Positions 8,076 to 46,841 of a stretch of DNA of 52,327 nucleotides are shown here, piece after piece; position 1 is the first letter of the stretch, and every line of letters starts with the position of its first letter. The notes beneath the pieces are model-generated. The model had not been told where the DNA came from and did no database searches. It worked only from the letters and a program-made list of their open reading frames with translations. Where the stretch lies: contig JAFZQT010000026.1 of assembly GCA_017620235.1 (NCBI GenBank), positions 1-52,327 of the forward strand, given 5' to 3'. The position numbers and the translations under genes were made by a program. The stretch comes from Butyrivibrio sp. (GTDB lineage: Bacteria > Bacillota > Clostridia > Lachnospirales > Lachnospiraceae).

Positions 8076-11000
8076 TTACTTTCTAAACAGATTCTTGATC
8101 TTAGATATAAGACCGGTCATCGATCCTCCCGATGCAGCAGAAGCACCTGCAGAGATCTTAATAACCGTAACTACTGCGGCAATAGCTATTATACCAAAAC
8201 CTGCAGCTGCAGGCACTATAGGAGGCAAAGGTATCTTTTTCTTTTCGGAAGTATCCTTTGTTTCTGTGCCATCCTGCTCTGTGCCCTGCTCAGCAGTTGC
8301 CTCATCCTTTTTGTTGTCTTCTACAGACGAAGCTTGTGCTGAATCCTCAACCGGAGTTTCATCCGTCTTCTTATCCTGTGACAAGCCATCATTGTTTTTA
8401 TTCGATGTATTGTCTTTTTTGTTTTTCTTAGAGGATTTCTTATTTTTATTTGCTTCTTTCTTGCTGTTATCCTTAGGAGTTGTAGCCGTAGAAGCATTTG
8501 CAGCCTTATCTTTATCTACAGCAGTTTTATCTTTTCCCGTAGCATTGCCCGTTCCTTTATTGCCGGATGAACCGGAATCCTTCTTCGAATCTTTTGCTTT
8601 ATTATCTGCAGGCCTTGCTTCAGTTTTCTTCGAATCCTTCGCTTTGTTGTCTGCAGGCTTTGCTTCAGTTTTCTTTGAATCCTTTGCTTTGTTGTCTGTA
8701 GGCTTTGCTTCAGTTTTCTTTGAATCCTTTGCTTTGTTATCTGTAGCCTTCGAAGCATCCGAATTCTTATCTGTTGTATTGCCGCCGTTAGTTCCTCTAT
8801 TTTTTCTAACAGCATCTGTCGCAGGACTTATATCATCACAGTTGCGAACTCTGAGTACAGGTACCGAAACTTCCGAATTTCCTTCGGGGTGCATGTAAAG
8901 CAAACCTGCTGCCGTAACTTTGGCGCCTTTCTTCACAAAATCACCAACAGTATTCTTTCCTGTTGTTCCGGACTTGATGTAACCGTCTATAAATATTGCA
9001 GCTTCTTTACCTGTTGAATCCTTGAGCCAGAACTCTGCAACGGTTCCGTCCGCATTGTAATCAACTCTTGTTACATCACCTGTTGTCTTAAGGAGCTGTC
9101 CGCCAAACTTTGCATAGTCCATAGCATTCTTTGTATCGACAACCTTTGGTTCCCAAACCTTCGGCTCATCTTTAAGTACCTTTGCAGAAATTACCTTGAG
9201 CTCAAGATCACCCTGATACTGAGCAAGGCATCCAACAATTCTCATCTTGGTACCGATCTTAAGTCCCGAAGTAGCGTAAGGGAATATATCCATACCGCCT
9301 GTCTCATCCTGAATGTAGATCGTATCAAAGAATGTTGTGTTCTCATTATCCGTGCCCGATGTAACATAGCCTTCAACCGCGAAGACTTCGTTCATCTTGC
9401 CTTTTCTTGCCTTTGCTATGGTCGTCTTTTCAAGTTCAACCGTAGAGCCAGCAAGAATGTTATTTACAATAGTATAGTTTGCATAAGGAAGTGAATCGTT
9501 ATTATCAATCTCTGCTTTAATCTCAAAGTCTGAAAGGAATACACCACCTGCAACTATAATCTGTCCGCCCTTCTTAGTCTTCTGACGGGCAATGAATGTG
9601 ACATTTCCCTTGTTGTCATTAGGCTTGTTTGCAGTGTATTTTTCTCCGTTAGGTCCCTTACAATCCATTGAAAGTGTTGTATCAAAGCCCTTTACAAGCC
9701 ACTCTGCCTCTTCAACAAACTTTGTAGCCTTTCCGTCAGAAATATCAACGGAACATCCCGAATACTGGCTATATTCCTGACCGTCTTTTATACCTGCAAG
9801 CAGATCTGAATTCTTATTAAAGTTCGTGGGACGAAGCCTGTACTGCTGACCACCGTTGTTTGTATCATCCCAAGCTTCATCAGAGCCCATTCTGATCGTT
9901 GATCCGATTGCAGAAAGAAGCTTATTCTGTTCTGTTGCAGTCTGACACCAGTCAGTATCGGAATAATCTGCAAGACCACATACGATCACTGAACCGCCGT
10001 CTGCCACATAATCTTTTACCAAGTTTATATACTCGTCACTGAAATGTGAAACGGTATATGCGCCCGCACCTGCAGTATCGTTCTTTTTCGCAGGAGCCGA
10101 AACAACAAGAAGCTTGCAATTCTTAAGCATATCCTTTGTGATCTTGTCTGTTACAACTTTTGCACGGATATTGTTCTTTGCACAAAGATTGATGAACGCA
10201 TTTACATTGCCTGCACGATATCCGGAAACGTAGTCATTGTAGTGTGTACCGTCTATGATAACTTCGGATACCATCTTGGAAGGCGTGTAATTTACACTCA
10301 GCTTATCTTTATATATCTTTTCAACACCGTTTAACGTTGCGTGTACGGTAACTTCATAAGTCACCTGTCCCACCCGATCATATTTAAACTTCGTCATAAA
10401 TGTTGCTGTTCCATTGGATGCAACCTCTTTAATTTTTGCAGCTTCTCCGGAAACTTTTGCAACGTGAGTCTTATTGCCATCTACGTCGCTGAGCTCAACC
10501 TCAATCTCGTTTATTGTAAGAGGCTGTTTCTCGTTGTTGTAGAAATCGACATTTATATCAAGCGCTTCTCCTGCAACGGGAAGAACTGTGTTTGTGTAAG
10601 TATTGCTGATACCGCATGCTTCAACCTCGCCTACCCATACAGGAGCGGTTACTGCAATATCTTTATCATTCTCGGAAATCTTGAGGTAATAATATGAATA
10701 ATTTGCGGGAACATTGAACTCAACCGTTGCTTCACTTTCTTCAACATTCTTTGAAGCAATGCACTGTCCGCCGTTTACTATAACCTCAACCTTACCGATT
10801 GCTTTATCAGTAGGATCCTTGATGTCAGCCTTGATGTTTACTGTCTCTCCGACTGCATCCTTCTCAAGGATAGAGCCCATCACGTTACCGTTAAGGGTAT
10901 AAAAAATTGAAAGGTCATTATCCTCGGTTGCATACACGCGATAATTTCTCATGGCATCATAGATAGCCGTCTCATCATTTGTGTCTGCCAAAATTACTGT

Positions 11001-45476: not shown

Positions 45477-46190
45477 TCACAATATGCTTCTTAAAAACTC
45501 TACAACTCCGATGTCCTGTCTGTTCTCATATTCTTCAAGTTCATCTTTATTGTCTTTTCCAAATGCGAACAGACAATCTATCTCATTATTGTGTGTACTC
45601 TCCTTGAAATGCTCAAACGCTGCCAACAACTCATCTGCAGTAAGCTCCGATTGAAGAATAGTCAGAATACCAAATTTCTTTTCATTAGTTATAATATGAG
45701 TCTCTCCGACACCTTCAATACTGTTCCTGATCTGAGTTCCAACTTCTTCCTCAAGCTCACGCATCGCTGTAATAAGCGGGTCTAAATGATTGGTCACTTC
45801 ATCCCTGTCCTCAGGATCCACCGCTCCGCCAATAAACTGTATCTTACCTGTAAATTCTGAACCAACACCGTTAAGCGAGACAATGCACTTTCCGTCACTT
45901 GTTTTCAAAAGACATCCCGCATACAAATTCCTGCACGCAAACTGCCCAAGGTCATGCGCCTCGCTATACTTGTAATTGGCATAATCGGAAAGCGCACACT
46001 CAAAAACAACATTACCGTCGTTATTCTCCATGTTCAGTACCGAATAAACCGGGCCGTTGAACATTCCCGGATACAGCTTCGTTTGCTCTCTCCAATATGC
46101 TGCGATATCCTCCCTTACATCCATAGGCAATTCAAGCATATCATCCTCGCCTTTTATGATCAGTTCTTTTGCCTTAATAATTGTAGCCAT
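45477..46190 (-). CDS. NUDIX-like hydrolase
   Basis: 237 residues from the ATG at 46190 (AGGTGAGG upstream). The NUDIX pattern is stretched: GGAVDPEDRDE ... TAMRELEEEVG keeps Gly, Glu and the R-E-x-x-E-E-x-G helix, but the spacing between Gly and the helix is longer than usual. An N-terminal ~95 residues are unassigned. NUDIX enzymes hydrolyse nucleoside-diphosphate-linked compounds. Its far upstream side carries the hairpin array at 46221-46612, which could lie in its 5' untranslated RNA. Confidence 0.72.
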   Translation of the reverse strand: MATIIKAKELIIKGEDDMLELPMDVREDIAAYWREQTKLYPGMFNGPVYSVLNMENNDGNVVFECALSDYANYKYSEAHDLGQFACRNLYAGCLLKTSDGKCIVSLNGVGSEFTGKIQFIGGAVDPEDRDEVTNHLDPLITAMRELEEEVGTQIRNSIEGVGETHIITNEKKFGILTILQSELTADELLAAFEHFKESTHNNEIDCLFAFGKDNKDELEEYENRQDIGVVEFLRSIL

Positions 46191-46220
46191 CCCCACCTCA
46201 CCTATTATTAACCTCATCGG

Positions 46221-46612
46221 TTCTCATATAATTCCTGTTTTGCAAAACAAATTTACGTGACTGACTATGAAAACACGTTTCTATTCACGTATAATTCCCG
46301 CGTCGCGCAACCAATTTACGTGAACAGAAACGAAAACATGCTATGATTCACGTATAATCCCTGCGTTGCTCAGCCAATTTACGTGAACAGAAACGAAAAC
46401 ATGCCATGATTCACGTATAATCCCTACGTTGCTCAGACAATTTACGTGAACAGAAACGAAAACATGCTATAATTCACGTATTATTTCTGATTTTCAGAGT
46501 AATTTTACGTGAATGATAACGAAAACAAGCAATAGCTCACGTATGATTCCTTTTTTCCAAAAGAATTTTACGTGAATGATAACAAAAACAAGCAATGGTT
46601 CACGTATAAATC
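46221..46612. repeat. Tandem array of 63-bp hairpin units with covarying inner stems
   Basis: Units start every 63 bases at 46221, 46284, 46347, 46410, 46473, 46536 and 46599 (last one partial). Each has conserved outer arms TTCACGTA / TACGTGAA closing a hairpin, a ~22-base conserved linker rich in A (GAAACGAAAACATGC), and a variable loop. The loops differ in sequence yet keep pairing: TGTTTT/AAAACA in unit 46221, CGCG/CGCG in 46284, TCTGA/TCAGA in 46473, ATTC-CTTTT / AAAAGAAT in 46536. No long open frame crosses the array. It lies between the NUDIX gene and a 48-residue ORF. I cannot name it; it is not a CRISPR array because the repeats are longer than the spacers and the variable part pairs with itself. 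Confidence 0.88.
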
Positions 46613-46651
46613 CTGCAAATCCCAAATCCAACAGGTTACCTTTAGCTTATT

Positions 46652-46798
46652 TCATTTCTTTTCCTTATCCTTCGCCAGCAGAGTCTTCAATGCCTTTGCC
46701 AATTCCTCCGAGGGAACCGCAGAAATTTTCTCAGCGTACTTATTCTGCTTGTACTCTATCTCTTTCAAGTTCTTCTTTTCAGGATTCTTTTTATCCAT
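46652..46798 (-). CDS. Small basic ORF (48 residues)
   Basis: MDKKNPEKKNLKEIEYKQN start at ATG 46798 with GAGG 7 bases upstream; an ATG 6 bases earlier abuts the site. It continues as a charged helix (EELAKALKTLLAKDKEKK) of Lys/Glu type with no hydrophobic segment. It is located 43 bases after the nitrilase stop and close to the hairpin array. A real small gene is likely from the ribosome site, but no family is recognised. Confidence 0.6.
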   Translation of the reverse strand: MDKKNPEKKNLKEIEYKQNKYAEKISAVPSEELAKALKTLLAKDKEKK

Positions 46799-46841
46799 AC
46801 TCATCCCTCTTCACTATCGACAGCTTCCGCAGCGTACTCTT

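Follow-up and report, generated by a model that had tools for sequence, protein, structure and literature searches.

A helically phased array of alternately inverted DNA sites in Butyrivibrio and its likely PD-(D/E)XK-like protein partner

The window considered here is the whole stretch of 52,327 nucleotides that was analysed from Butyrivibrio sp. (contig JAFZQT010000026.1). It carries at positions 46221–46606 an array, assigned to neither strand, of 13 eight-base sites in which TTCACGTA and its inverse TACGTGAA strictly alternate with a period of exactly 63 bases, the ACGT cores being 31–32 bases apart. Twelve of the 13 sites have at most one mismatch and the thirteenth has two; the latter is the degenerate forward site TTCTCATA (46221–46228, plus strand), with which the array opens. 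It is followed on the plus strand by TTCACGTA at 46284–46291, 46347–46354, 46410–46417 and 46473–46480, by CTCACGTA with one mismatch at 46536–46543, and by a last TTCACGTA at 46599–46606 in the final partial unit. The inverted sites on the minus strand are TACGTGAC with one mismatch (46254–46261) and TACGTGAA at 46317–46324, 46380–46387, 46443–46450, 46506–46513 and 46569–46576. A sequence-only reading had described six 63-base units and a partial seventh, with outer arms and linkers conserved between units, and both descriptions hold. The between-site segments are copies of one another that have diverged. Elsewhere in the window, at 8581–8750, lies a tandem repeat with a 45-bp unit and 3.8 copies, its period being divisible by three.

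The array is adjoined by a NUDIX-like gene (45477–46217, minus strand) and, on the opposite side, by an open reading frame without a Pfam match (46652–46804, minus strand), which had been given as 48 residues and is in fact 50 codons long. The start of the NUDIX-like gene lies 30 bases from the array, as had been stated, if the ATG at 46190 is used, and three bases from it if the ATG at 46217 is used. The array had been described as spanned by no open frame, and it is intergenic; a minus-strand frame of 45 codons (46494–46631) does cross part of it, and nothing marks this frame as a gene.

The sequence-only reading had also proposed that the inner stems of the units covary and that structure, not sequence, has been kept. 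Perfect inner stems with loops of two to eight bases comprise 6, 5 and 5 pairs in units 1, 5 and 6 and only 3 pairs in units 2–4; compared with shuffles of the same 25 bases, the probabilities for units 1 to 6 are 0.055, 0.74, 0.73, 0.77, 0.083 and 0.109. The CGCG/CGCG pair would enclose a loop of one base. The inner stems lie in different registers (paired-position sums of 45, 40, 40 and 43, obtained by hand) and therefore do not represent homologous columns. Inner covariation was assessed in three ways: on pairs of positions placed symmetrically or with a shift, by comparing the folding of loops with that of shuffled versions, and on the window units alone. In relatives, covarying pairs formed no run along a helix, with isolated z values of up to 3.3 (43 inner and 55 linker segments), and the folding of loops exceeded that of shuffles only a little, to the same extent in linkers and inner segments (52 and 57 segments), this excess being weak (mean z of −0.36 for inner segments and −0.43 for linkers, on one strand). 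These segment counts, like those behind the flank-base and A/T-phasing results below, leave out overlapping or duplicate rows (L002–L004, L009, L011, L012, L040, L052, L066 and L088) and three-site hits in unrelated organisms that were presumed to be chance (L056 in Parabacteroides, L058 in Nevskia, L063 in Streptomyces, L070 in Planctomycetaceae and L089 in Haladaptatus). Covarying inner stems were not borne out, the related arrays displaying no conserved inner stem, no consistent inner covariation, loop folding close to that of shuffles, and segments that differ from one another.

Changes within the arms themselves were seldom matched in the other arm. Among facing arm pairs, 101 were exact, 41 had one arm changed and 11 had both changed, one of these 11 by the same change, while for back-to-back pairs the corresponding numbers were 134, 48, five and one. 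Thinning for homologous copies left 33 exact, eight one-arm and one both-same facing pairs and 42 exact, 13 one-arm and no both-same back-to-back pairs, and since few changes remain after thinning, the independent evidence on compensation is small. On one strand, G-U pairing would survive in 12 of the 41 facing pairs with one arm changed. What has been preserved is the sequence and spacing of the sites, with no visible sign of selection on pairing, although the independent sample is small; the earlier claim that structure rather than sequence was kept is not supported. One result does favour pairing and counts against a reading as DNA sites: facing arms are correlated in the base immediately outside the core (26 of 50 versus 15.5 expected, P = 0.001) and in the inner flank base (P = 0.013), the same correlations being weaker between back-to-back arms (P = 0.21 and 0.062). 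This correlation was initially read as pairing and was set aside because core changes are rarely compensated; it is the main result in favour of the sequence-only reading.

The spacing of the sites follows the DNA helix. The periods of 43 arrays located upstream of genes fall at 52–54, 62–65 and 73–76 bp, which correspond to approximately five, six and seven helical turns. Between TCACGTA sites the sequence is A/T-rich at the middle and about 10 bp away from it, and richer in G/C in between. This modulation fits best to 10.5 bp in inner segments (z = 9.4) and broadly to 10.5–11 bp in linkers (z = 8.4–8.7), and about 10.5 bp is close to the helical repeat of B-DNA. The A/T phasing recurs in 12 six-turn arrays that have other sites (z = 4.6), and the five- and seven-turn arrays, for which the test is ill suited, gave no 10.5-bp signal.

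Arrays with the same sites and spacing recur across many Butyrivibrio and related genomes, with unrelated between-site segments, and the genome of the window itself holds a second such array on contig C123, its segments likewise unrelated. A three-site pattern matched 66 stretches among 84,980 species genomes, 61 of them labelled Butyrivibrio, Pseudobutyrivibrio, Lachnospiraceae or one uncultured Clostridiales bin; the remaining five, in unrelated bacteria or archaea, were taken as chance. At least one inverted pair was detected in 32 of 79 genus genomes, with 33 pairs in one genome; the backward control pattern matched once each in 13 of the 79, so that single hits may be chance. In a family-wide draw, four of 299 genomes matched the three-site pattern and none matched the control. 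The patterns used retrieved one array from viral contigs. The place and number of arrays differ between species. Two site types were seen in adjoining arrays at L006/L088, L290 and L291.

These arrays often end shortly upstream of a gene for a protein of approximately 266 residues, which belongs to an uncharacterised family of gut and rumen bacteria. The gap between array and gene is about 20–100 bp in members of Butyrivibrio and Pseudobutyrivibrio, while two other genomes have gaps of 168 and 307 bp. The C-terminal half of the protein matches PDC-S68, a PADLOC candidate defence model (E = 4e-27 for P0002); weaker matches are to HEAT_CxxC_PDDEXK (E between 7e-5 and 2e-3) and, for one of three proteins, to PDC-S69 (E = 6e-4). 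Residues E163, D194 and E209, which we take to be the putative PD-(D/E)XK catalytic residues, are invariant across 22 aligned family members, and the C-terminal half resembles PD-(D/E)XK nucleases. For the three members searched, no Pfam match, an Lrp family included, exceeded the cut-off; there was no corresponding NCBIfam family and no solved relative by PDB-sequence search. The only significant protein match outside PADLOC (among Rfam, Pfam, NCBIfam, PHROGs and PDB sequences) was a weak one, from one of three proteins, to a PHROG whose function is not known (E = 2e-4). No relatives were found in viral contigs by the patterns used; eight plasmid records match the protein, all inside residues 152–265, and three unannotated 'phage' records match it, one over 97% of its length. 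Family matches were present in 70 of the 79 genus genomes (up to nine per genome) and, class-wide, in 19 of 196 genomes, five of these 19 with weak partial matches only.

Four family proteins are encoded by the genome of the window. The one on contig C113 (44001–44798, minus strand) is 79% identical to a protein of genome G050, whose gene sits behind a TCACGTA array, and the C113 gene is itself preceded by eight TTACGTG sites, which is the site of the window array. In other genomes the array and nuclease unit often lies directly behind guaA (L042, L157–L159, L161, L164, L165 and L262; a GMP synthase by Pfam for L042), an arrangement also seen in a genome outside the genus, and in the genome of the window and in G050 the unit lies elsewhere. 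A member of another Clostridia family (G432; L210, L215 and L216) has 13 family matches, and arrays with as many as 16 sites accompany some of these.

The pairing of array and protein extends to paralogues that have other sites. In a search for alternating 7-mers upstream of the first 30 paralogue loci, 28 loci scored higher than any of 29 control windows (maximum 3.4), and among these 28 are 13 close orthologues that share a TACGTGA site; the other site types comprised TACTTGA, CCGTAGA, TACCCGT, TACGGTG, GGATACA, CAGATAG, GCGCAAC and GACGTAA. The search was then made with fixed criteria, the score limit of 4 having been set once the 29 control windows (maximum 3.4) were known. Full-length proteins with at least 250 bp of upstream sequence were obtained from 91 of 96 loci, of which 73 remained below 90% identity. 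A regular alternating array precedes 43 of these 73 non-redundant members and was not detected by the same criteria in the other 30, as compared with two of 160 control regions (from 345 available); Fisher's test gives P ~1e-24 with shared ancestry ignored, and as arrays share ancestry such formal probabilities overstate the case. Both passing controls look like genuine arrays. One, in G039, consists of CTATAAA, the 7-mer found upstream of that genome's own family protein (L176); the second, at L057, is made up of CACGTAG sites.

The sequence of the site follows the protein, chiefly its N-terminal half: half-site similarity correlates with N-terminal identity at a Mantel r of 0.485 (0 of 2000 permutations) and with C-terminal identity at 0.22 (6 of 2000). 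Furthermore, TCACGTA pairs occur in every one of the 13 genus genomes that encode an orthologue at 68% identity or above, versus 19 of the 66 others (Fisher P ~1e-6), a contrast that is inflated because the array at the gene itself counts. The pairs in those 19 genomes speak against the pairing with the protein, though single hits among them may be chance. A second site type concerns another family protein of the window's genome, encoded on contig C115, whose gene has twelve GTGCGGT-type sites upstream that the exact GTACGGTG pattern misses. Pairs of GTACGGTG occur in four of the 79 genus genomes, and three of these four hold an orthologue of the C115 protein of at least 84% identity; the fourth, G036, has such pairs without a close orthologue (20 of the 79 genomes were covered by the orthologue check). 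In G030 the backward control of the GTACGGTG search matched ten times, which is probably another array with its own site.

Many arrays stand apart from any family gene. Among 83 TCACGTA-type arrays, a family gene or fragment lies within 3.5 kb of 24 and of none of the other 59; this split is limited to the sequence around each locus, which is short for some, and among the 83 are the five hits presumed to be chance, copies of a MITE and one array counted in two cuts. Beside two arrays, L049 and L111, matches cover just the C-terminal 20 and 41 residues, as if the remainder of the protein had been lost. A partner was sought in eleven genomes with TCACGTA arrays. A family gene accompanied by a TACGTGA array is present in G568 and G569, both found via gene-less arrays, and in G570, found via an array at the gene; in G571 the nearest family gene lies 966 bp from an array (three of three paralogues checked). 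No TCACGTA-type array was found upstream of the paralogues checked in G566 (four of ten), G567 (three of five), G572 (three of six), G573 (one of one), G023 (three of six), G025 (three of four) and G039 (three of eight), the available upstream sequence being just 18 bp for two G567 paralogues and 147 bp for one from G025.

One group of arrays is carried by a MITE of 305–307 bp (246 bp at L041) with CAATGTCATTTAGATAA ends, its array resembling that behind guaA. Copies with both ends were found at L035, L041, L044, L047, L051, L055, L061, L067, L069 and L078, and with one end at L038 and L062. Exact 9-bp duplications flank two of the ten two-ended copies (L044 and L051), near ones occur at L035 and L069, and several insertion sites display a GGACGGGGT-like motif. 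Separately, a Mutator-family transposase gene splits a TCACGTA array at L072 (2640–4060), likely with a 9-bp duplication (by eye). The idea that genes are cassettes between arrays, considered from L072 and L101, was dropped, as one insert is this transposase and the other may equally be a deletion.

Some arrays have stayed in place between species. For genomes G004 and G023, three pairs of stretches were compared and all three occupy the same place in both species. One of these shared loci has 15 and 14 GTACGGTGC sites with a 52-bp period in both genomes; identity is 90% in the sites, 52% and 58% in the between-site segments and 84–94% in pieces of the flanks, as compared on segments of one length only (7 and 5, and 7 and 7). 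The 90% value is partly built in, because sites were chosen with at most two of nine mismatches, while the kept spacing and site number are not built in by this choice. At another locus shared by G004 and G023, a GTACGGTGC array has next to it a TCACGTA array, with two sites in one case and six in the other; one assembly has a gap at this place.

Several explanations may be weighed against binding of the arrays by a dedicated nuclease-like protein. It is possible, though we would not expect it, that the protein is mainly a transcription regulator which reuses a nuclease fold and that gene-less arrays are operators, in the window of the NUDIX-like gene. Arrays upstream of the protein's own gene, the three loci common to G004 and G023, and the finding that both neighbours point at the array in only five of 63 arrays with two called neighbours (counted by hand from crude open reading frame calls, homologous copies included) are consistent with this. 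Among known systems, the arrangement resembles Lrp-type regulators, where several sites in helical phase lie upstream of the regulator gene and DNA is wrapped (compare PMC2995911 and PMC10201364); the partner here, by contrast, has a nuclease-like domain and no Lrp domain by Pfam, the sites alternate in orientation with up to 16 before a gene, and specificity varies among paralogues. Against a regulatory network, the neighbours of gene-less arrays are unrelated (a metallo-beta-lactamase fold, araA, an aldo/keto reductase, a tRNA editing domain and an exonuclease) and mostly unshared, with one five-member group and four pairs beyond the nuclease and guaA, and the putative catalytic residues are invariant. 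Around the window array itself, promoter-like matches were no more frequent than in shuffles, and not so much as one pair of TTCACGTA-type sites in alternating spacing was present at any of the 19 loci (L013–L031, with flanks of up to 1.5 kb) that match the NUDIX-like gene in other genus genomes. A nuclease parked on chromosomal arrays and freed or activated by invading phage or plasmid DNA is a rather less probable reading. The PADLOC matches argue for it, but they are limited to the C-terminal domain of the candidate proteins, the PDC-S68 and PDC-S69 likeness lies in that domain, and the PDC-S68 models span approximately 1200–1270 positions as against some 266 residues here, with a different N-terminal half; moreover, no defence gene was recognised by Pfam name among the few neighbours scanned, and the chromosome-wide scatter of gene-less arrays would be left unaccounted for.

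That the arrays encode structured RNAs, for example an antitoxin RNA of the type III toxin-antitoxin kind before a nuclease gene, appears improbable. As in ToxIN, a tandem repeat array directly precedes a gene for a nuclease-like protein; a stem of 7–9 bp could arise from each inverted pair, and both the flank-base correlation of facing arms and the weak excess in loop folding point the same way. Repeat units of ToxIN-type systems are 34–44 bp, whereas those here are 52–76 bp with inverted sites near whole helical turns; in addition, gene-less arrays are common, one-arm changes outnumber same double changes by 41 to 1 in facing arms (8 to 1 after thinning, on a small independent sample), the inner diagonal is not consistent, and Rfam models matched nothing in the window and only a tRNA in seven gene-proximal loci. 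We likewise find it hard to favour a passive selfish repeat, MITE or REP/BOX-like, without a partner protein. Similarly to REP/BIME, BOX and MITE-like repeats, the arrays are dispersed, inverted and variable in copy number, and one group is MITE-borne with some 9-bp duplications; yet inspection by eye saw neither CAATGTCATTTAGATAA-type ends or other terminal inverted repeats nor a target duplication around the window array, only short sites and spacing are common to the loci, the sites are conserved amid turnover of the rest, and a protein family whose specificity changes is paired with them. Repeats separated by variable segments also call CRISPR to mind, but the segments here are diverged copies of one another, A/T-phased and of two alternating lengths, and cas families were absent among the six window and ten neighbour proteins scanned. 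Among the options of the sequence-only reading, a protein-binding array fits best and structured RNAs are not supported; a selfish element is possible in view of the MITE-borne group and the variation in place and number between species.

We therefore favour, with good though not complete confidence, the interpretation that the window array is a platform of double-stranded DNA for a sequence-specific DNA-binding protein, likely the PD-(D/E)XK-like protein of contig C113, encoded elsewhere in the same genome. Each TTCACGTA or TACGTGAA would be one candidate binding site, and alternate inversion at a spacing of three helical turns would bring the sites into phase, allowing a multimer of the protein to coat the stretch or wrap it. 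Recognition of the site probably lies with the variable N-terminal half, the conserved C-terminal half being nuclease-like, and the protein may control its own gene through the array in front of it. Gene-less arrays such as that of the window may represent additional docking sites that a module of array and nuclease, selfish in part, has left behind or spread. As to purpose, three possibilities are comparable: a module that controls itself and is partly selfish, a regulator, or a nuclease for defence.

More broadly, we lean towards the view that Clostridia harbour a large, as yet undescribed class of modules, in which a PD-(D/E)XK-type enzyme with an N-terminal domain would read a private site of 7–10 bp, arranged in long arrays, alternately inverted at 2.5, 3 or 3.5 turns, before its own gene and in gene-less satellites. 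Paralogues would have distinct sites, giving several independent networks per chromosome, and enzyme and sites would co-diverge fast. The literature searched, as represented by the starts of abstracts, contained no description of such an array-protein pairing. If this view is correct, the pairing of protein and repeat would be new, and dozens of related natural DNA-reading domains would be available with candidate cognate sites, making the code that links N-terminal domain to site directly testable. It would also add a new kind of multi-copy module to these genomes, for which self-spread, defence, regulation or chromosome organisation are possible purposes.
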